The notes beneath the pieces were generated by a model. That model did no database searches. It was not told where the DNA came from and saw only the letters and a program-made list of their open reading frames with translations. 32,443 bases of DNA from a virus, in the IMG/VR virus record IMGVR_UViG_3300008735_000056, positions 1 through 32,443 of that record. One strand, 5' to 3'. Shown here piece by piece: positions 7,857-26,088 of this stretch (the stretch's first letter is position 1; the number at the start of each line of letters is the position of its first letter). The position numbers were made by a program, and so were the translations under genes.

Positions 7857-9362
7857 ATGACAGAAACTGCCCAAAAATTTTACGAACTTTTTAAAGGCTC
7901 AAGTCGAGCTCATGGAACGTTTGAAGTTAACAACACTAACGACATTAAACAAAAAGGAGTTGGCAAAACTATTCGCAGTGGTGGGGCAGAAATTAAACAC
8001 TGGATTAGTCATTTAGAGGGAGATTATGGGTTAGGGGTTATCCCTATAAATGAAGACAATAAAGTATGTTGGGGGTGTATAGACGTAGATGTCTACCCTT
8101 TAGAATTTAAACACTTAGTCGGATTAGTAGAAAACTTAAAGTTCCCGTTAGTTGTTTGTCGTAGTAAAAGTGGTGGTGCTCATATCTTTTTATTCACTAA
8201 AGATTTTGTACCTGCAGGAGAAATGCAAGACGTATTAAGAGAACTTTCTGCTGCGTTAGGGTACGGTGGTGTAGAAATCTTTCCTAAACAACGTGAAATA
8301 CTTGTTGATAGAAGTGATGTAGGATCATGGTTAAACATGCCATACTTTGGGGGAAATGATTCAACACGTTATGGTTATGACAACAATGGAATGCATTTAA
8401 ACTCTGAAGCATTTTTAGAGTTCGTAGAGAAAAGGAAAATAACGAGAGAAAAATTATTAAGTATAGAAACACCTAAAGCAGAAGAACTTATGGAAGGTCC
8501 ACCTTGCTTAAAAGTTTTATTAAAACAAGGCTTTCCCGAAGGAACAAGAAATAATGGACTATTTAATATAGGGGTTTATTTAAAGAAAGCCCACCCTGAC
8601 GAATGGAATAAAAAGATAGAAGATTATAATAGAAAGTATGTACACCCTCCATTGCCTGCATCAGAAGTCTTAACCTTAATTAAAACACTAGAAAAGAAAG
8701 ACTATAACTATAAGTGTGGGGATGAACCTATACGTTCTTATTGTAATAGAAATAAATGTTTAACCTGTAAACATGGGGTAGGAGATAATCACGGTGCTCC
8801 TACTTTCTCTAGTCTTGCTAAATTAGGAACCACCCCACCACTATGGTTTATGTCTATAGACGATAGACGTATTGAACTAACTACTGAACAACTACAAAAT
8901 CAAATTAAGTTTCAACGAGTATGTATGGAACAACTTAATATAATGCCTCCTCGTATGAATGAAAGAGGGTGGCAAAACTTAGTTCAACATCTCATGGATA
9001 GTGGGATGGAAATTATAGAGGTTAGTCAAGACGCTTCTATAGAAGGACAGTTTATGGAACACCTAGAATCCTTTTGCACTGACTTGGCTCAAGCCCAAGC
9101 TAAAGATGAACTATTATTAGGAAAGCCATGGACAGAAGAAGGTAAAACATTCTTTAGGCTTAGTGACCTACGAGAATATTTAATGAAACATAGATTTACA
9201 GACATGCCTTTAAACAGTATGGCTTCTAAGCTAAAAGAACTGGGAGCAGAGCACGAGTTCTGGAACATTAAAAAGAAAGGTGTAAACGTATGGAGAATAG
9301 ATGCTTTTGAATACGATGAGGAAGGTTTAGATACTCCTGACATGGAAGAGGATCCGTTCTAA
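7857..9362 (+). CDS. Archaeo-eukaryotic-type primase (primase-polymerase)
   Basis: Likely makes primers for phage DNA replication. 501 residues. The AEP catalytic pattern is visible: CIDVDVYPLE with D76 and D78 as the metal-binding DxD, SKSGGAHIF with H109 as the sxH motif, then EIFPKQ (140-145) as the hhE-type segment. This resembles the AEP branch of TOTE-type elements and phage primases. A PriCT-like helical part follows (GTRNNGLFNIGVYLK, 229-243), then four cysteines (C287, C296, C301, C304) that could bind zinc or an Fe-S cluster. The C-terminal 170 residues hold a possible winged-helix region (SMASKLKELGAEHEFW). A replicative ring helicase is not seen next to it; the SNF2 and UvrD-like proteins are the only helicases in the window. 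Confidence 0.85.
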   Translation: MTETAQKFYELFKGSSRAHGTFEVNNTNDIKQKGVGKTIRSGGAEIKHWISHLEGDYGLGVIPINEDNKVCWGCIDVDVYPLEFKHLVGLVENLKFPLVVCRSKSGGAHIFLFTKDFVPAGEMQDVLRELSAALGYGGVEIFPKQREILVDRSDVGSWLNMPYFGGNDSTRYGYDNNGMHLNSEAFLEFVEKRKITREKLLSIETPKAEELMEGPPCLKVLLKQGFPEGTRNNGLFNIGVYLKKAHPDEWNKKIEDYNRKYVHPPLPASEVLTLIKTLEKKDYNYKCGDEPIRSYCNRNKCLTCKHGVGDNHGAPTFSSLAKLGTTPPLWFMSIDDRRIELTTEQLQNQIKFQRVCMEQLNIMPPRMNERGWQNLVQHLMDSGMEIIEVSQDASIEGQFMEHLESFCTDLAQAQAKDELLLGKPWTEEGKTFFRLSDLREYLMKHRFTDMPLNSMASKLKELGAEHEFWNIKKKGVNVWRIDAFEYDEEGLDTPDMEEDPF

Positions 9363-10967: not shown

Positions 10968-11828
10968 ATGGAACTAGACGAAGCACAAAGACATAAAGCC
11001 TTTTTTAATTTTATTAACGAAAGACATGCTATTTATGTTAATAAAGAAGCGGGAGCAGACTTTCCTTGGACAGAAGATGAAATCTTAAGGAAGTATAGTT
11101 TTTGTAATGTATTTAGAGAACTAGACACCGTTACTAAATGGATACGAAGTAATTGGTGTGAACCATACATGGAACACCCTAACGTACCTTTTGCTATGGC
11201 GGTAGCTAGACAAATCAATTGGCCAGGAACACTAGAAGAAATAGGCTTTCCTGATAAATGGGAACCTGAACGTGTTAAGGAAATAATGCAGGCTAGAAAA
11301 GATGCAAAAAAGAAGGTTTACACTGGTGCTTATATGTTAACGGGAACTTTAGGTGGTTCTAAGATAGAACAAACAATAGATAAAATTTTAACACCTTTAT
11401 ATAATAACCCCCCTGAACTTCACATGGACTCTTTAGAAAAGACATGGGAAGGTTATCTTCCTTATGCAGGATTTAGTGGTTTTATGTCTTATGAAGTAGT
11501 AACTGATTTACGACACACTAAATACCTTAAGAACGCAGATGATATTAATACTTGGGCTAATGCTGGTCCAGGAGCAGTAAGGGGATTAAATAGGATACAT
11601 AATAGAGATATTAAAAAGTCTTTAACTAAGAAAGCTTCTTGCAGTGAGATGTATGATCTATTAATGGTATCCGATAGATATTTAGAAGATCATGTTCCTG
11701 TTCTAGAAATGAGAGACATAGAACATTGTCTTTGTGAATTCGATAAATATGAACGCACTAGATTAAATGAAGGAAAACCTAGAGCACAATATAAACCAAA
11801 CAGAAAAAAGGAGGAGTGGGAAACATGA
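10968..11828 (+). CDS. HMUDK-helical / aGPT-Pplase-type DNA base-modification protein
   Basis: 286 residues. The N-terminus carries FFNFINERH (12-20), then PWTEDEIL (33-40), KYSFCNVFRELD (42-53) and TKWIR. That order, an ERH-type start, P-W-T-x-D-x-I-L, then F-x-N-x-x-R-E-x-D, is the signature I know from the helical domain of 5-hydroxymethyl-dU DNA kinases and the related alpha-glutamyl/putrescinyl-thymine pyrophosphorylase (amino-acid:DNA transferase) families of phages with hypermodified thymine. No P-loop kinase is fused. It is therefore expected to act on 5-hydroxymethyluracil in phage DNA. The next two genes, a glycosyltransferase and a TS-type hydroxymethylase, fit the same pathway. 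The exact reaction (phosphorylation, amino-acid transfer or neither) cannot be told from sequence. Confidence 0.75.
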   Translation: MELDEAQRHKAFFNFINERHAIYVNKEAGADFPWTEDEILRKYSFCNVFRELDTVTKWIRSNWCEPYMEHPNVPFAMAVARQINWPGTLEEIGFPDKWEPERVKEIMQARKDAKKKVYTGAYMLTGTLGGSKIEQTIDKILTPLYNNPPELHMDSLEKTWEGYLPYAGFSGFMSYEVVTDLRHTKYLKNADDINTWANAGPGAVRGLNRIHNRDIKKSLTKKASCSEMYDLLMVSDRYLEDHVPVLEMRDIEHCLCEFDKYERTRLNEGKPRAQYKPNRKKEEWET

Positions 11829-12589
11829 GAATATTTATACCGAGTAAAAGTAGGCAAAGAGAACAAACTACGTTATCTTTTATGCCTGATGATATAAAGG
11901 CTAACACTACTTTAGTTGTGGATGCCTCTGAAGAAGAGGATTATGCTAAAGTACATGATAACCTTTTAATTGTCCCCGAAGAAATTAAAGGTATTTCAGG
12001 GGTTAGGCAATATATCTGGGATAATTCAGATGATCCACGAATTGTTATGTTAGACGATGATCTAAGGTTTTATGTAAGAAAAAGCCCAACTGATTGGCAC
12101 TTACGATATTTAGAACCAGAAGAGTATCATGGAGTTTTTGGACTATTAGATGAATGGATGGATCAGGGTTATGGACACTGTGGTATTAGTGCTAGGGAAG
12201 GTAATAACCGAGTAAAAGATTTATCAGCTGAGAACACTAGGTACATAAGAGCACTAGCCTATGACCTAGATATTTGTAGGGATAAAGTTGAACACGGCAG
12301 GGTAACTGTTATGGAAGACTTTGATGTAGCACTTCAATTACTAAGGGCAGGTGTTCCTAATAAGGTTAGCTTCTTTTATGCTCAGGGACAAAAGCAATCT
12401 AATGCTGCTGGAGGTTGCTCTACTTATAGAAGCCCAGAGGTACAGGCAGAATCTGCATTAAAAATGAAAGAGTTACACGAAGATTTTGTGCGTGTTGTAG
12501 AAAAAGAAACTAAGACTGCTTGGGGTTGGGGTAAAAGGCAGGACGTAGTAATAAGTTGGAAGAAAGCATATGCAAGTTATCAAAGCTAG
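11825..12589 (+). CDS. GT-A glycosyltransferase, TAGT-like, probable DNA base glycosyltransferase
   Basis: 254 residues. The ATG overlaps the upstream TGA (ATGA) and has AAGGAGGAG ahead of it; a GTG at 11816 is too close to that site. It opens with MRIFIPSKSR (1-10), has a strand LVVDASEEEDY, the metal-binding MLDDDL (75-80) and MEDFDVALQLLRAG (163-176), the arrangement of GT-A glycosyltransferases of the TET-associated (TAGT) kind that put sugars on hydroxymethylated pyrimidines in phage DNA. No TET/JBP oxygenase is adjacent; here the hydroxymethyl group would come from the nucleotide-level hydroxymethylase downstream. The sugar donor is unknown. A role in surface glycan transfer is a weaker alternative. 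Confidence 0.72.
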   Translation: MRIFIPSKSRQREQTTLSFMPDDIKANTTLVVDASEEEDYAKVHDNLLIVPEEIKGISGVRQYIWDNSDDPRIVMLDDDLRFYVRKSPTDWHLRYLEPEEYHGVFGLLDEWMDQGYGHCGISAREGNNRVKDLSAENTRYIRALAYDLDICRDKVEHGRVTVMEDFDVALQLLRAGVPNKVSFFYAQGQKQSNAAGGCSTYRSPEVQAESALKMKELHEDFVRVVEKETKTAWGWGKRQDVVISWKKAYASYQS

Positions 12590-13652
12590 AAATGTGAATG
12601 AAGCCCTTCTTTTAGGGTTAGACCACTTAGCTATTGAAGGTGAGTGGCGAGAGAGTCGGGCAGGTAAAGTTATAGAATCAGTTTCTCCTGTCACTACCAC
12701 CTATACCCACCCTAATGAAAGAGTTTTATTCTCAAAACCAAGAGACGCTAACCCTTTCTTTCATTTTCTTGAAGGTTTATGGATGTTAAATGGACAAAAT
12801 GATGTAGAAACAGTAGCTTTTTATGTTAAACGAATGGCTGAGTTTAGTGATGATGGAGAAACTTTGTGGGGTGCTTATGGTTATCGCTGGCTTAACCATT
12901 TTGGTTATAGCGTAGGTCATGATAGAAATCAAATAAAAAAGATAATCAATATACTAAGAGAAAACCCCGACGATAGACGTTGTGTCCTACAGATGTGGGA
13001 TGCTTTACAAGATTTAAATAAAGAAGGTAATGATATACCTTGCAACACTAACATTTACTTTAAGGTTAGAGACAATAAACTTCAGATGACTGTTTGTTGC
13101 CGTAGTAATGATATGATATGGGGAGCATATGGAGCAAATGCCGTACATATGTCAATGCTTCATGAAGTTATAGCTAGTGCTGTTGGCGTTGAGTTAGGGG
13201 AGTATCACCAGATAAGCGATAGCTTTCATGCTTATGAAAAAGTCTATAAACCTTTGCAAGAGGAAATAGGTCTTTTGGACTATTATGCTATTCAGTATCC
13301 TCTTACAGGAATCTCCAATGTTTATGAATTAAATGATGTTAATCCGTACCCTATGGTGTCTACTCCCTATGAAGAATGGGTGGTGGATCTTGATACATTT
13401 ATGTATGACCTAAAGAGGTGGAAACACAAAGCAAGAAAACTAGAAGGTGGTCATTGTAAGGATGCTTTCTTTAATGAGGTAGCATACCCCATAGCAAGAA
13501 GTTATGCATTCTATAAAGATGCTGCTATAGATATGGCTATAAAAACAACAGAACAAATTAAAGCAGAGGACTGGTCATTGGCTTGTAAGCAATGGCTAGA
13601 ACGTAGAACAGTTAAAGAAGAGTCTCATAAGGACATAGAAGCAGTTTTATGA
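12570..13652 (+). CDS. Thymidylate synthase-family pyrimidine hydroxymethylase
   Basis: 360 residues. Core TS residues are present: catalytic C158 in DIPCNT, the paired arginines R136/R137 in DDRRCVLQMW, RSND (178-181) and DSFHAY (217-222). In the helix that contacts the base, an ungapped alignment from RSND puts Ala at the place of the Asn that selects dUMP in true thymidylate synthases, with Asn one residue later (GAYGAN, 185-190). That pattern fits the deoxynucleotide or nucleotide hydroxymethylase branch better than ThyA, so dUMP (or dCMP) to 5-hydroxymethyl-dUMP is likely. The partner genes favour the uracil product. It overlaps the glycosyltransferase by 20 bp, so the two are co-translated. 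Plain dTMP synthesis cannot be excluded. Confidence 0.8.
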   Translation: MQVIKARNVNEALLLGLDHLAIEGEWRESRAGKVIESVSPVTTTYTHPNERVLFSKPRDANPFFHFLEGLWMLNGQNDVETVAFYVKRMAEFSDDGETLWGAYGYRWLNHFGYSVGHDRNQIKKIINILRENPDDRRCVLQMWDALQDLNKEGNDIPCNTNIYFKVRDNKLQMTVCCRSNDMIWGAYGANAVHMSMLHEVIASAVGVELGEYHQISDSFHAYEKVYKPLQEEIGLLDYYAIQYPLTGISNVYELNDVNPYPMVSTPYEEWVVDLDTFMYDLKRWKHKARKLEGGHCKDAFFNEVAYPIARSYAFYKDAAIDMAIKTTEQIKAEDWSLACKQWLERRTVKEESHKDIEAVL

Positions 13653-14320
13653 CAAACATAACACGATGGTCTTATAGCCGATTAGGTACTTATGAAAGTT
13701 GTCCTAAAAAAGCATACTATAGGTACATAGAACAATTACCCGAGACCCAACACCCTGCTGCTGCACGTGGTACACATATTCATGGTTTAGCGGAAGACTA
13801 CATAGTAGGGACTATAAAAGAATTACCAAAGGAACTTAGATTATTCAGTGACGGTTTTGAAAAACTAAGGGAAGACTATTTAGCGGAAAAAGTATTTGTA
13901 GAACAGGACTGGGCTTTTGATGAGTCTTGGGAAAGTGCCCCATGGACTGGGGAAAATACATGGGGAAGATATAAGATAGATGCGTTTTTTAAAGACGGTG
14001 ATTACGGTAAAGTGATAGACTTTAAGACAGGTAAATACTGGTCTAATGAGGTAGGGTATAGGGACCAGTGTTCTCTTTACGCCTGTGGGGTTTTTAGTCG
14101 GTTTCCAGACCTAGAAAACGTAGAGACGGAGCTATGGTATTTGGACCATCAAAAAATAAGCCGACACGCCTTTTCCAAAGAAGAAATTCAGGAGGTTCAA
14201 GATAATTTTACTTCTAGAGCATCCGCTATGACTAATGACACCAAGTTTATAGCTACACCTTCGGAAAATTCATGTAGATGGTGTCCATTTAAAGAAATAT
14301 GTCCAGATTATGAAAGATAA
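13649..14320 (+). CDS. Cas4/RecB-like PD-(D/E)XK exonuclease with cysteine cluster
   Basis: 223 residues. The fold is shown by SYSRLGTYESCPKK (8-21), GTHIHGLAED (41-50), D111 in YKIDAF, the catalytic VIDFKTGK (122-129, D124 and K126) and the Q140-x3-Y144 motif. C18 with C209, C212 and C218 form the four-cysteine set that holds a 4Fe-4S cluster in Cas4 and AddB-type nucleases. No cas1 or cas2 is present, so this is the phage form, probably a 5'-3' ssDNA or dsDNA exonuclease for recombination or host DNA breakdown. It overlaps the hydroxymethylase by 4 bp (ATGA) and the next gene by 11 bp. Confidence 0.88.
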   Translation: MTNITRWSYSRLGTYESCPKKAYYRYIEQLPETQHPAAARGTHIHGLAEDYIVGTIKELPKELRLFSDGFEKLREDYLAEKVFVEQDWAFDESWESAPWTGENTWGRYKIDAFFKDGDYGKVIDFKTGKYWSNEVGYRDQCSLYACGVFSRFPDLENVETELWYLDHQKISRHAFSKEEIQEVQDNFTSRASAMTNDTKFIATPSENSCRWCPFKEICPDYER

Positions 14321-14606
14321 ACCAAAAACATTTTTAAGAATAAACAAAATAGCAAAGAACGATGTATCAAAATTAATACAAGCAGAAAAATCCTACGGCA
14401 TTTCATGGCGTAAACGAGGAGGGGTGGGAGCCTTCATGATGTTAGCGAGAAAATGGGATCGTATAGAGCAACAGGTAGAATCTCAAAACTATGATGTCTT
14501 TGAAGCATATACTAAAGACTCACGTGAAGAGGGTATCTTGGACGATATACAAGACCTACGTCGCTATTTATTGTTAGTAGAAGAACATATTACCAAAGGA
14601 GGTTAA
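14310..14606 (+). CDS. Small phage protein resembling nucleotide-modification-associated domain 1
   Basis: 98 residues, all-alpha. The segment SYGISWRKRGGVGAFMMLARKWDRIEQQV, given here in parts as SYGISWRKRGG and GAFMMLARKWDRIE, followed by a C-terminal IQDLRRYLLLVEEH helix, recalls the small helical proteins annotated as Nmad1/DUF1599 in phages and linked by gene context to modified-base synthesis. The resemblance is by eye. Its place straight after the hydroxymethylase and nuclease supports that reading but also fits a general NTP-pyrophosphohydrolase-like helper. The start lies inside the upstream gene, with a poor ribosome site, so translation is probably coupled. Confidence 0.55.
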   Translation: MKDKPKTFLRINKIAKNDVSKLIQAEKSYGISWRKRGGVGAFMMLARKWDRIEQQVESQNYDVFEAYTKDSREEGILDDIQDLRRYLLLVEEHITKGG

Positions 14607-20654: not shown

Positions 20655-20716
20655 TGCGATATGACTATATAATAATAGCATTGGTTGTTATACTTATTGT
20701 GGGGGTAGCTGTATAA
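20651..20716 (+). CDS. 21-residue membrane peptide
   Basis: ATGATGCGATATG starts on the ATGA overlap with the upstream gene and ends on a TAATG overlap with the next, filling the gap without a spare base. The product MMRYDYIIIALVVILIVGVAV is one hydrophobic helix. The exact coupling on both sides argues that it is translated. Role unknown. Confidence 0.5.
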   Translation: MMRYDYIIIALVVILIVGVAV

Positions 20717-21198
20717 TGAGTGTTGTAGTAAGTGGTGGATTTGACCCTATCCATATAGGGCATTTAAGAATGTTTAATGAAGCTAAAGCTTTAGCTTCAG
20801 AATTTACAGGAAAATTGATCGTTATTGTAAATAATGACGAGTTCCTGTTAGAAAAGAAAGGTTATGTTTTTATGCCTTTTGAACAACGGATGGAAATTAT
20901 AGGGGGATTTAAACCTGTGGATATAGTAGTTCCTTCTATTGACACTGACCAAACGGTTTGTGAGACTTTAAAAGAATTATGCGAGGTTCCCTCTAACAAT
21001 ATACGCACATTTGCTAACGGAGGCGATAGAAAAAGCAAAGAACACATCCCCGAAGCTGGAATTTGTGAGCATTACGGTGTACGCCTGATGTTTAACATAG
21101 GTGGAGGAAAGGCTCAAGCGAGTTCTGATTTAGTGGAAAAAGTGTGGAAAACAAGATATGAACAACTATCTAATCAAAAACTTCCCTCTAGCCGTTAG
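20716..21198 (+). CDS. Cytidylyltransferase-like nucleotidyltransferase
   Basis: 160 residues with the HxGH signature GGFDPIHIGH (7-16), the nucleotide-binding FANGGDRKS (about 98-106) and a late SSDLVEK that stands for the ISSTxI-type motif. The length and order are those of small CTP/ATP transferases such as glycerol-3-phosphate cytidylyltransferase, the RfaE N-terminal-type heptose-phosphate adenylyltransferases or FMN adenylyltransferase. The substrate cannot be told. With the isomerase-type cupin 1.3 kb on, a role in sugar-nucleotide or glycan metabolism is plausible. It overlaps the next gene by 41 bp. Confidence 0.85.
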   Translation: MSVVVSGGFDPIHIGHLRMFNEAKALASEFTGKLIVIVNNDEFLLEKKGYVFMPFEQRMEIIGGFKPVDIVVPSIDTDQTVCETLKELCEVPSNNIRTFANGGDRKSKEHIPEAGICEHYGVRLMFNIGGGKAQASSDLVEKVWKTRYEQLSNQKLPSSR

Positions 21199-21853
21199 AT
21201 CAGAATGGATGATCGATGAGCAGGTAGCTGATCTAATTAAAACTGCTCTCCCCGAAATACTAAAGTTCGGTAAGTCATTAGGGAAAAATGACTTAAAAGA
21301 AACTGTTTTGCGTAGTCAAATTAAAGAACCTGTTAAAGAGGTCTACACAACACCTCTTTTTAAACCTGATTTTTGTGAAATGCTATTAGATGAAGTAGAG
21401 AATATGAAGCTCTATTTTAATTTTGAACCTAACCCTGAAGAAGATGAACTCAGGCAAATACCCGAAATTATATTAGAACAGTTTGCTCCTGATATATTTT
21501 TATCTATGATGAGTGTGGTTTATTCTGTTATGAACCCTATTTTTATGGTACTGTGGCAACGCTATATAGAAACAGCCTACAGTATTCAAATAGCTAATTA
21601 CAATTTAAAGAACAAACAACAAGGTGCATGGCACCATGATCAAACTGCCGATATCAGCGTAGTAGTTCCCTTAAATACTGGTGACTATAAGGGCGGAGGC
21701 ACAGAATTTCTTGGCAGAGGGGTAGTTGATCCCTTACCTAGTGGTCATGCGTTGATTTTTCCTAGCTTTACCCACATGCATCGTGGTTTAGCAGTAGACA
21801 AAGGAGACCGTTACCTTCTGGTCTTCTGGCTTAAAACCGCAATTCCCGTTTAA
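21158..21853 (+). CDS. 2-oxoglutarate/Fe(II)-dependent oxygenase, prolyl-hydroxylase type
   Basis: 231 residues. The C-terminal double-stranded beta-helix carries the metal triad H159-x-D161 (AWHHDQTADISVVVPLN) and H206 or H208 (FTHMHRG), with R218 (KGDRYLLVFW) for 2-oxoglutarate. GGGTEFLGRGVVDPLPSGHALIFPS is the expected middle strand. The N-terminal 110 residues are helical and phage-specific. Substrate unknown: protein side chains are usual for this branch, but a base or sugar is possible given the neighbouring modification genes. The start overlaps the nucleotidyltransferase; a later ATG at 21206 would cut the N-terminus. The promoter of the next unit follows the stop. Confidence 0.85.
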   Translation: MNNYLIKNFPLAVRSEWMIDEQVADLIKTALPEILKFGKSLGKNDLKETVLRSQIKEPVKEVYTTPLFKPDFCEMLLDEVENMKLYFNFEPNPEEDELRQIPEIILEQFAPDIFLSMMSVVYSVMNPIFMVLWQRYIETAYSIQIANYNLKNKQQGAWHHDQTADISVVVPLNTGDYKGGGTEFLGRGVVDPLPSGHALIFPSFTHMHRGLAVDKGDRYLLVFWLKTAIPV

Positions 21854-22453: not shown

Positions 22454-22822
22454 ATGTTAATTCAAAAACCATGGGGAAACTATAAAGTTCTACTTGAAAG
22501 TGACCATTATGTCGTAAAAGAACTACGACTTTTCCCTGAACAACAGTTTAGTTTGCAAAAACACGAACATCGCATTGAAGAATGGACAATTTTAGAAGGA
22601 ACAGGGTTAATAACTCTTGGTGAATCCCCACAACAGACATCTACGTTCGTTTCTGGAGAAAGATCAAGGGTAATGGTTCCGCAAGGATACATACATCGTC
22701 TTAAAAATACGAGTAAAAACAATGACTTAGTGGTTTTAGAGATTTGGTGGTCTAAGAAAGAAAACGGTCTATCAGAGGAAGATATTATCAGATATGAGGA
22801 CGATTACGACAGGATTTGTTAA
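22454..22822 (+). CDS. Cupin, mannose-6-phosphate isomerase type II-like
   Basis: 122 residues, matching only the C-terminal isomerase domain of bifunctional GDP-mannose pyrophosphorylase/mannose-6-phosphate isomerase. Hallmarks: KPWGNYKVLL at the start, LFPEQQFSLQKHEHRIEEWTILEG (metal-binding His/Glu), the second cupin motif VPQGYIHRLKN, and a closing EEDIIRYEDDYDRI, which is the usual end of the family. It would interconvert mannose-6-P and fructose-6-P or act on a related sugar. In a phage with a putative DNA glycosyltransferase and a nucleotidyltransferase it may help to supply an activated sugar; capsule or LPS change is the alternative. Confidence 0.82.
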   Translation: MLIQKPWGNYKVLLESDHYVVKELRLFPEQQFSLQKHEHRIEEWTILEGTGLITLGESPQQTSTFVSGERSRVMVPQGYIHRLKNTSKNNDLVVLEIWWSKKENGLSEEDIIRYEDDYDRIC

Positions 22823-24384: not shown

Positions 24385-24854
24385 TGGGAACAAGAAGTAA
24401 TATCATTTATGAAGAACCGACTGGAGAGGTTTTATCTATGTACTGTCACTATGACGGTTATCCTAGCCATAACGGAAGGATACTGTTTGACCAGTATAAT
24501 AGTGCAGAAAAAGCCAAAGCACTGGTAGAAGTAGGTTACGCCAGAGTTTTAGACAAAGAAGGTGTAGGTGTAGATCCTGAAAGACCTAACGAAATGGAAC
24601 GGCACAGAAACCTAAACAGTTATATGTGGAGCGTTGATGAGGTCATGATTGAGTACATTTACCGCTTTGCTAGAGGTCAATGGTGGATGTCTAAAATTGA
24701 ATCAGTTAAGCCAAAGGACTCTTACATGGTTAGTATCACCTACCACTCAAAGTTTAAACTGCTATCAGAAGTGCTTGAGGAATTGAATAAAGAAAGAGAT
24801 ATTGTAGAAGACATACTAGATAAGCGATCAGAAGTGTGGCTTAGAGGCGGTTGA
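24384..24854 (+). CDS. Conserved phage protein of the MGTRSNI type
   Basis: 156 residues. The opening MGTRSNIIYEE, then MYCHYDGYPSHNGRILFDQY and AKALVEVGYARVL, match a family I know from many phages (start M-G-T-R-S, then a W/Y-D-G-Y-P motif); its function is not known to me. The second half is helical with LLSEVLEELNKERDIVEDIL. A GGAGGTG ribosome site lies just ahead, and the stop TGA overlaps the dUTPase start. Confidence 0.7.
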   Translation: MGTRSNIIYEEPTGEVLSMYCHYDGYPSHNGRILFDQYNSAEKAKALVEVGYARVLDKEGVGVDPERPNEMERHRNLNSYMWSVDEVMIEYIYRFARGQWWMSKIESVKPKDSYMVSITYHSKFKLLSEVLEELNKERDIVEDILDKRSEVWLRGG

Positions 24855-25276
24855 TGCAAATTAGAATACTAAATAGAACGCCCATGCCAGACTATGCTAC
24901 TTCAGGATCAGGGGGAATGGACATCTATTCTCCTAGAGTGGTTAGAATACCGTCTAAACAAACTATCGTAATTGAAACAGGTTTTGCTATATGGATTAAG
25001 GATCCTAAGTTTTGTGGTGTGTTACTCTCTCGCTCTGGGCTTGCGAGCAAAGGCATTGTCTTAGCGAACTCAATTGGTCTGATCGACTCCGATTATCAGG
25101 GCGAATTGAAAGTCTGCCTTTATAACAGGAGTAACACACCCTACATAATAGAGCTAGGAGATAGAATAGCCCAGTTGGCTATTATGAAGGTTGAACAAAT
25201 AAAACCAGTAGTGGTTGACCAGTTTGAGCATGAAACAGAACGTGGTACAGGAGGCTTTGGTAGCACAGGAGAGTAG
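24854..25276 (+). CDS. dut: dUTPase (deoxyuridine 5'-triphosphate nucleotidohydrolase)
   Basis: 140 residues, hydrolysing dUTP to dUMP and pyrophosphate as a trimer. All family motifs are present: I SGSGGMDIYS (17-26), II SRSGLASKG, III GLIDSDYQGEL with the catalytic Asp, IV GDRIAQLAI, V RGTGGFGSTG. I start at the ATG at 24854, which overlaps the upstream TGA; a TTG one codon earlier is possible. In this phage it both keeps uracil out of DNA and supplies dUMP, the likely substrate of the hydroxymethylase at 12570. Immediately followed by the next ATG. Confidence 0.95.
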   Translation: MQIRILNRTPMPDYATSGSGGMDIYSPRVVRIPSKQTIVIETGFAIWIKDPKFCGVLLSRSGLASKGIVLANSIGLIDSDYQGELKVCLYNRSNTPYIIELGDRIAQLAIMKVEQIKPVVVDQFEHETERGTGGFGSTGE

Positions 25277-25534
25277 ATGAACAAACGGTACAAAGGCACA
25301 GTTGATTGGTTTAAAGAGAGAGGACCCACAGGTAAAAGAAACAGAAGAAAAGGAACATCTGCTGGTTTTTCTAGTTTTTCAGCATGGCGTGTTATTGTAA
25401 GGGATACTGAAACTAACACCATAGTCGAAGAAGCTGTTGTTAAAACAAAAGATATCGACAGTGCTGTAACCGTAGCAAAAAAGATGGCAAAGGAGTGGGA
25501 AAATAAATGCTCAAATACATTAGAGATACAGTAA
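25277..25534 (+). CDS. Hypothetical basic protein
   Basis: 85 residues, ATG directly after the dUTPase stop. N-terminal half basic (YKGTVDWFKERGPTGKRNRR), then FSSFSAWRVIVRDTETNTIVEEAVVKTKDID, a beta pair, and a helix at the end. The layout resembles small phage proteins with one strand-strand-helix unit. No family recognised. It overlaps the following oxygenase gene by 28 bp, whose GGAG site lies in its coding sequence. Confidence 0.55.
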   Translation: MNKRYKGTVDWFKERGPTGKRNRRKGTSAGFSSFSAWRVIVRDTETNTIVEEAVVKTKDIDSAVTVAKKMAKEWENKCSNTLEIQ

Positions 25535-26088
25535 CACTAACACCTGAATTTGAATATTGGGATGAACCTGAAACAAGAGAATATAATGGGGTACAAGTGA
25601 TAGGCAGACCCACGCGAGGATTTGGCGACAGCCCTTTTGAATACGCAGGTAAGTTCATGGCTCCTGAACCTTGGGACACCGACAATATGAATTTTTACAA
25701 GGATATAGCAGAGGAACTTGCGTCCCATGCTACAGGTAGGAAAGTTAAATTCACCTTTTGTTTATGTGGTCTGTATAAATCAGGCTACGTCACTATCCCA
25801 CACCATTCAGATACGGTGCCCACGTTAGATGATATAGTGTTATCCTTTTCTTTTGGTGCTCCTAGACTATTTGAATGGAACACGTATGTGGAGGACATTA
25901 AAAAAGAGAGTAACACTAGTGAAATAAGCACCTGTTATCACAACAGAGACGAAACAACAAGATACTTGTTAAGTCATGGGGATGCATTGATTTTTGATGG
26001 GCATTCTCAGATGAGGAGTACTCACGCAGTACCTAAGTTAGAAAATGTTGGGGAAAGAATTAACCTGACATTTCGAAGTGGTCTTTAA
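25507..26088 (+). CDS. AlkB-like 2-oxoglutarate/Fe(II) dioxygenase
   Basis: 193 residues. The AlkB pattern is clear: H100-x-D102 (IPHHSDTVP), FSFGAPRLFEW as the next strand, the second metal His H173 (MRSTHAVPK), and RINLTFR with R184 and R190 for 2-oxoglutarate and substrate. GDALIFDGHSQ precedes H173 as usual. Known relatives remove alkyl groups from DNA or RNA bases by oxidation, so this may repair phage nucleic acid; action on its own modified bases is speculative. It is the second oxygenase of the window. Its end overlaps a convergent small gene by 29 bp and no terminator is seen. Confidence 0.85.
   Translation: MLKYIRDTVTLTPEFEYWDEPETREYNGVQVIGRPTRGFGDSPFEYAGKFMAPEPWDTDNMNFYKDIAEELASHATGRKVKFTFCLCGLYKSGYVTIPHHSDTVPTLDDIVLSFSFGAPRLFEWNTYVEDIKKESNTSEISTCYHNRDETTRYLLSHGDALIFDGHSQMRSTHAVPKLENVGERINLTFRSGL

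Follow-up and report, generated by a model that had tools for sequence, protein, structure and literature searches.

Three adjacent genes at positions 10968–13652 of IMG/VR virus record IMGVR_UViG_3300008735_000056 raise the question of which base of the phage DNA they modify, and in what way. The record is a virus fragment of 32,443 bases, analyzed here over its whole length and referred to as the window. The genes encode an HMUDK_hel (aGPT-Pplase1) protein of 286 residues (10968–11828, + strand; hereafter hel), a protein of the TET-associated glycosyltransferase (TAGT) family, of GT-A type, with 254 residues (11825–12589, + strand), and a predicted dUMP 5-hydroxymethylase of the thymidylate synthase (TS) family with 360 residues (12570–13652, + strand). 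A sequence-only reading had already described the overlaps, which are confirmed, all on one strand, and had proposed a thymine hypermodification pathway together with a hidden Markov model search as a check. That search placed the 286-residue protein in HMUDK_hel and the 254-residue protein in TAGT, not in unrelated families, and the assignments of all three proteins are borne out (PF18723, PF20691 and PF00303). The order hel, TAGT, TS on the same strand recurs in 148 of the 152 loci having all three genes, a redundant set of loci; the cassette is thus not a chance arrangement. We consider it fairly probable that it serves post-replicative thymine glycosylation, in which 5-hydroxymethyldeoxyuridine (hmdU) would be built into DNA and then O-glycosylated, with hel presenting the base.

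The three proteins of the cassette

The TS relative matched PF00303 (2.6e-25) and PHROG 5131 (2e-122) in the profile search and is 46% identical to thymidylate synthase gp58 of phage M6, whose DNA contains modified thymine (PMC6449724). In this family, Asn or Asp at position 177 of E. coli TS, 179 of the T4 enzyme and 186 of MilA separates uracil from cytosine users, while Ser and Arg at the positions of MilA A176 and K133 distinguish users of deoxy substrates from users of ribo substrates (PMC5175136). Hydroxymethylation is marked by an Asp three positions ahead of the catalytic Cys (PMC6400193). In the window protein, N190 aligns with MilA D186, T4 D179 and E. coli TS N177, S179 and R136/R137 provide the deoxy signatures, and D155 stands three residues before the Cys nucleophile C158. 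Among the fetched loci, D155, S179 and N190 are present in 145/145 TS proteins of TAGT loci and in 17/17 of kinase loci, including M6.

The signature of a dCMP hydroxymethylase of the T4 gp42 type is absent, as Asn190 occupies the place of T4 D179 and no Asp is found there. The position of T4 Ser94 is held by Ala102 in an alignment made by inspection; the same holds in M6 and most relatives, so the Ser94 signature is not diagnostic for dUMP enzymes. In the T-even-type phage PKO111, used as a control, a cytosine-type RNDYAW motif is found; the aligner column holds its Tyr instead of the Asp, so this control was judged by eye. The residue signatures strongly support that the TS relative acts on dUMP rather than dCMP, in agreement with the thymine-directed hydroxymethylase proposed earlier.

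The TAGT gene matched PF20691 (1.2e-20; 74.8 bits against a cut-off of 27.5) and PHROG 842 (1.3e-47). Its start is most likely ATG 11825, because GGAGGAG lies upstream and the codon overlaps the stop of hel by four bases (ATGA), whereas GTG 11816 is merely the first start after a stop codon. The model of the protein has a predicted local distance difference test (pLDDT) score of 88.7, and its structural matches are GT-A/GT2 glycosyltransferases. All of the 17 diverse TAGT members compared keep DDD 80–82 (numbered from GTG 11816) and D168. The protein thus combines profile match, GT-A fold and DxD motif, and we propose that it is a putative hmdU-DNA glycosyltransferase. T-even phage TAGTs act on phage DNA, and solitary TAGTs of unknown function occur in 288/753 phage genomes (PMC13216743). 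A sequence search of the PDB with the window hel and TAGT returned nothing significant.

For the sugar donor, two genes of the window were considered, a cytidylyltransferase-like gene (20716–21198) and a mannose-6-phosphate-isomerase-type cupin (22454–22822), which might supply a sugar nucleotide. Among the fetched loci, which often end earlier, both are common only to the closest kin, and no donor is claimed. Some hel-TAGT cassettes carry an FkbM methyltransferase (L187:8897–9628 by Pfam, L008:7898–8584 by eye) or a radical S-adenosylmethionine (SAM)/SPASM protein (L058:8315–9328, L170:9965–10999; L numbers denote fetched loci), a hint that the sugar or the base may be decorated further.

The hel protein matched PF18723, the Pfam family "5-hmdU DNA kinase, helical domain", over residues 9–268 (4.8e-46; 157.8 bits against a cut-off of 25). 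The sequence-only reading had labeled it both HMUDK and amino-acid:DNA transferase (ADDT). As a family name the first label stands, while the ADDT profile PF18724 gave no match to hel, with M6 gp51 as control at 1.4e-46; the two are separate Pfam families with a common predicted fold. The P-loop kinase domain PF18748 is found neither in the window hel protein nor in its near-complete sister G001 (63.6 kb).

The AlphaFold model of hel (pLDDT 94.5) is all-helical. Its top match in VIA-align is the 5-PmdU glycinyltransferase PUGT (gp46) of phage PaMx11 (8z2n; Z 11.8 over 220 residues, root-mean-square deviation 3.7), followed by 8-oxoguanine, 3-methyladenine, EndoIII and MutY DNA glycosylases at Z 10–6. 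Since all 33 of the 33 rows above Z 5 belong to one DNA-glycosylase superfamily, the model likely represents a base-flipping, DNA-binding fold like that of helix-hairpin-helix (HhH) DNA glycosylases, with the caution that Z values of all-helical proteins demand. Residues R19, D37, F45, R50, D53, F172, Y175, D180, G200, G202, C256, E257 and K260 are invariant in all partner classes compared, namely TAGT-, kinase- and GT-B-partnered hels and cellular hels. We propose from the model that hel may be the subunit that binds hmdU in DNA and presents the base. A PDB sequence search with the M6 kinase and the M6 hel gave nothing significant.

Exchange of partners around hel

Whole records were searched for the partners of hel, 77 in total, many of them fragments and several near 60 kb. 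TAGT was found in 51 records and the PF18748 kinase in 16, and no record has both. By a rough estimate that ignores phylogeny, this absence of overlap would arise by chance with P about 0.008 from hand-set cluster counts, or about 0.005 on a recount from the table. ADDT was scanned in the first 50 records, where PF18724 occurs in 13 and TAGT in 37, again without overlap. The earlier claim that the route lacks a fused P-loop kinase is supported: no P-loop 5-hmdU kinase was found in the window hel, in G001 or in any of the 51 TAGT records. Of the two outcomes then offered for the modified base, glycosylation gains support; amino-acylation does not, as hel lies outside PF18724 and the 37 TAGT records scanned contain no member of that family.

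The hel tree (63 rows) requires at least four switches between TAGT and kinase. The sister hels of L058, with TAGT, and L261, with kinase and ADDT, join at a support of 100/99; because these sisters differ in partner, the tree indicates that hel partners have been swapped repeatedly. The hels of Brevibacterium phage LuckyBarnes and L258, both with TAGT, lie in a separate, mainly cellular clade. Together, the sequences suggest that in hel phages TAGT replaces the 5-hmdU kinase and the amino-acid transferase.

Other glycosyltransferases also occur in hel loci. In six phage-type loci that have hel and TS and neither kinase nor TAGT, the immediate neighbor of hel is a GT-B-like gene. One GT-B family, Glycos_transf_1-like, comprises L164, L167, L171 and L184 (35–58% identical); the other comprises L159 and L169 (36% identical), of which L169 matches Glyco_trans_1_2. 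L159 and L184 alone fall below the Pfam cut-offs, and their assignment is based on similarity to L169 and L171. L156 has a GT61 in addition to TAGT. In L222 (7266–8978) and L248 (7311–8990), a single gene joins hel with a Thymidylate_kin-type P-loop domain, and the TS gene follows directly; the substrate of this fused kinase might be the nucleotide rather than DNA.

We also notice hel genes in other settings. The phage contig L161 contains two of them (7974–8861, + strand; 11835–13106, − strand) with a PF18748 kinase elsewhere in the record, and L175, a 463-kb IMG/VR jumbo contig, has hel, while its whole length contains neither a PF18748 kinase nor a TAGT. HMUDK_hel also occurs widely among cellular genomes (L190–L256), including Clostridia, Bacilli, Planctomycetes, cyanobacteria and Haloferax, mostly without TS, kinase or glycosyltransferase nearby. 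The hel of L200 adjoins a ThsB-type TIR gene, Nmad1 and Nmad2, likely a defence island. A validated anti-phage unit includes a "5-hmdU DNA kinase" domain (PMC13092281).

Proposed pathway and its alternatives

On the basis of these results, the proposed pathway would have four steps. First, the TS-family enzyme would convert dUMP, supplied by dUTPase, into 5-hydroxymethyl-dUMP, a step strongly supported by its residues. Second, kinases of the cell or phage would produce hmdUTP, which the phage PolA would incorporate into DNA; SPO1- and M6-type pathways are understood to run via hmdUTP incorporation. Third, hel would bind hmdU in DNA and probably flip the base in the manner of HhH DNA glycosylases, a role that we infer from the predicted fold and from conservation independent of the partner. 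Fourth, TAGT would move a sugar from a nucleoside diphosphate sugar to the hydroxymethyl oxygen, yielding 5-(glycosyloxymethyl)-deoxyuridine, and the glycosylated product would protect phage DNA against host nucleases.

Hel would then be a module that can change partners: alongside a P-loop kinase it would serve phosphorylation and amino-acid transfer, as in M6 and PaMx11, and alongside GT-A or GT-B enzymes it would serve glycosylation. In the broadest form, to which we give distinctly less than even chances, hel would be a general subunit presenting hmdU in DNA to unrelated partners (P-loop kinase, GT-A TAGT and two GT-B families), and the cassettes would form a modular class of two-component thymine glycosyltransferases using several sugars.

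Several observations weigh against the glycosylation pathway. The T-even TAGTs known so far extend glucosyl-hydroxymethylcytosine (hmC) by a second sugar and do not attach a first one to hydroxymethyluracil (hmU). In the literature consulted we found no nucleoside measurement for any such phage, and the TET-type kinase and ADDT system of Tonitrus is described without naming aGPT-Pplase1 (PMC11955845). Regarding hel itself, Foldseek with the model returned nothing below E 0.001, its best Z of 11.8 is within the range where all-helical proteins can match by arrangement, and no hel-TAGT fusion was found. The circular 40-kb ctUhy936 lacks hel, although it encodes a TAGT 43% identical to that of the window together with a uracil-type hydroxymethylase; TAGT thus does not strictly depend on hel. 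Conversely, the Hyphomicrobium-type chromosomal islands L177–L180 and L188 have hel and TS, and neither kinase nor glycosyltransferase was found in them. As a separate observation, these islands, which lie in Hyphomicrobium and related chromosomes, carry a duplicated copy of a phage protein of about 100 residues, and the pair in L177 lies near recA.

The last two cases also fit the strongest alternative, which we regard as rather unlikely: hel would be an independent enzyme, either an ADDT-like transferase or one that processes hmdU, for example leftover hmdU towards T, and TAGT would glycosylate alone. The likeness of the predicted hel fold to that of PUGT and the many invariant polar residues of hel point the same way. 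On the other hand, PUGT transfer requires a phosphorylated base, and none of the 51 TAGT records has the kinase. The swapping of hel between a kinase and unrelated glycosyltransferases also fits a partner role better.

It is very improbable that the cassette follows the T-even style, with hydroxymethyl-dCMP and glycosyl-hmC as products. Annotation favors such a cytosine pathway: T-even TAGT relatives and PHROG 842 bear the label of glucosyl-HMC transferases, and the LuckyBarnes enzyme that of a dCMP hydroxymethylase (PMC6588365). In addition, among relatives of the TS protein with a solved structure, the CMP hydroxymethylase MilA is the nearest. We reject the cytosine pathway on the TS residues, since thymine-modifying M6 has the same Asn at the switch between uracil and cytosine and the same further signatures. 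Moreover, the neighbors are dUTPase and dNMP-nucleotidase, and HMUDK_hel is linked with hmdU systems and missing from PKO111.

Least probable of all is a hypermodification of M6 type, by an amino acid or polyamine, whose kinase and transferase genes lie elsewhere, the glycosyltransferase being an extra decoration. A 2022 pelagiphage report describes the gene set in this way (PMC9599517), and the window, as a fragment, leaves room for such genes outside its ends. Against this, neither PF18748 nor PF18724 occurs in the sister records of about 60 kb (G001–G008), where whole-record searches for a PF18748 kinase outside the fragment came back empty, and TAGT and kinase exclude each other completely.

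Known systems, relatives and surroundings

Among known systems, the thymidine hypermodification cassettes of M6, YuA and PaMx11 resemble the proposed glycosylation cassette in that HMUDK_hel adjoins a TS-family hydroxymethylase of uracil type and PolA follows shortly downstream; the window hel is 41% identical to that of M6. The M6 genes run ADDT gp51, pyridoxal phosphate (PLP) enzyme gp52, radical SAM gp53, P-loop kinase gp54, hel gp55, Nmad5 gp56 and TS gp58. The window cassette has TAGT in place of the kinase, transferase, PLP and radical-SAM enzymes, and the M6-type set of kinase, ADDT and tailoring enzymes is absent from it. The T2/T6 beta-glucosyl-HMC-alpha-glucosyltransferase shares PF20691, the GT-A fold and a TS-family hydroxymethylase as neighbor, but it extends glucosyl-hmC, its hydroxymethylase is cytosine-type, and there is no hel (PKO111). 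With base J and TET/JBP systems the cassette would share an O-glycosylated hydroxymethyl-uracil in DNA as end product, whereas here hmU would arise at the nucleotide level through the TS-family enzyme rather than from T oxidized within DNA.

LuckyBarnes, a cultured isolate, has an operon of TS, two TAGTs and HMUDK_hel (gp38–gp41) with uracil-type TS residues. It differs in its two TAGTs, its reversed order, its hel clade and its dCMP-type annotation; DNA modification has been suggested for this phage (PMC6588365).

The cassette was found in dozens of phages of about 60 kb of the pelagiphage HTVC023P type. The TS and aG/PT-PPlase1 cluster described for such phages agrees with it in families, place by PolA and phage type (PMC9599517). 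In the accessible part of that report the cluster is M6-like with an occasional "additional" glycosyltransferase, and kinase exclusion, partner exchange and GT-B variants do not figure there. The "distinct route" claimed for the cassette is therefore tempered: the gene content was already published in 2022, and it occurs under separate annotations in LuckyBarnes, while the exchange of kinase for glycosyltransferase looks new. The exclusion, the swaps and the GT-B variants are unstated in the literature searched; Lee 2018, Lee 2022 and Iyer 2013, which may contain some of this, lay outside the search.

If the reading is true, thymine would be glycosylated in many marine phages in parallel to T4 cytosine glucosylation, by a route assembled from the components of M6 hypermodification, and the enigmatic helical protein among these components would serve as a base-presenting module that can be used again and again. 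Its function would become directly testable, with LuckyBarnes as an immediate test case. The reading would also offer new DNA-glycosylating enzymes for hmU labeling and explain why sugar-modified thymine is met in nature by defence nucleases and glycosylases.

Megablast of the whole window against phages gave no match. Its primase, helicase and PolA are related to those of HTVC023P and 023Pt_psg01 (PolA 51–55% identical). Between helicase and PolA, the region compared, these two phages have no hel or TS, and for that region they look like natural cassette-free relatives. G001 keeps the gene order of the window. Its TAGT (locus L263) is 97% identical to that at 11825–12589, compared with 87% for hel and 71% for TS, which may reflect strong constraint on TAGT or a recent exchange of TAGT only.

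The cassette is surrounded in the window by genes for primase, a UvrD-type helicase, a PD-(D/E)XK nuclease and PolA. The dUTPase (24851–25276, + strand; PF00692, 1.8e-30) is likely an accessory supplier of dUMP. The gene named earlier for this role is real, yet it lies 11 kb downstream of the cassette; homologues lie inside the cassette in L017, L064, L072, L074, L078, L084 and L088. Sister phages have either a dUTPase or an HD 5'-nucleotidase between hel and TAGT. The same position is taken in many sisters by the family of a conserved 98-residue protein (14310–14606, + strand; AEKSYGxSWRKRGG...ARKWDRIE), with 154 tblastn places among the fetched loci. Two 2-oxoglutarate-Fe(II)-type oxygenase genes, OGFOD2-like (21158–21853) and AlkB-like (25507–26088), are widely kept in related phages; neither adjoins the cassette, and by Pfam they are not TET/JBP.

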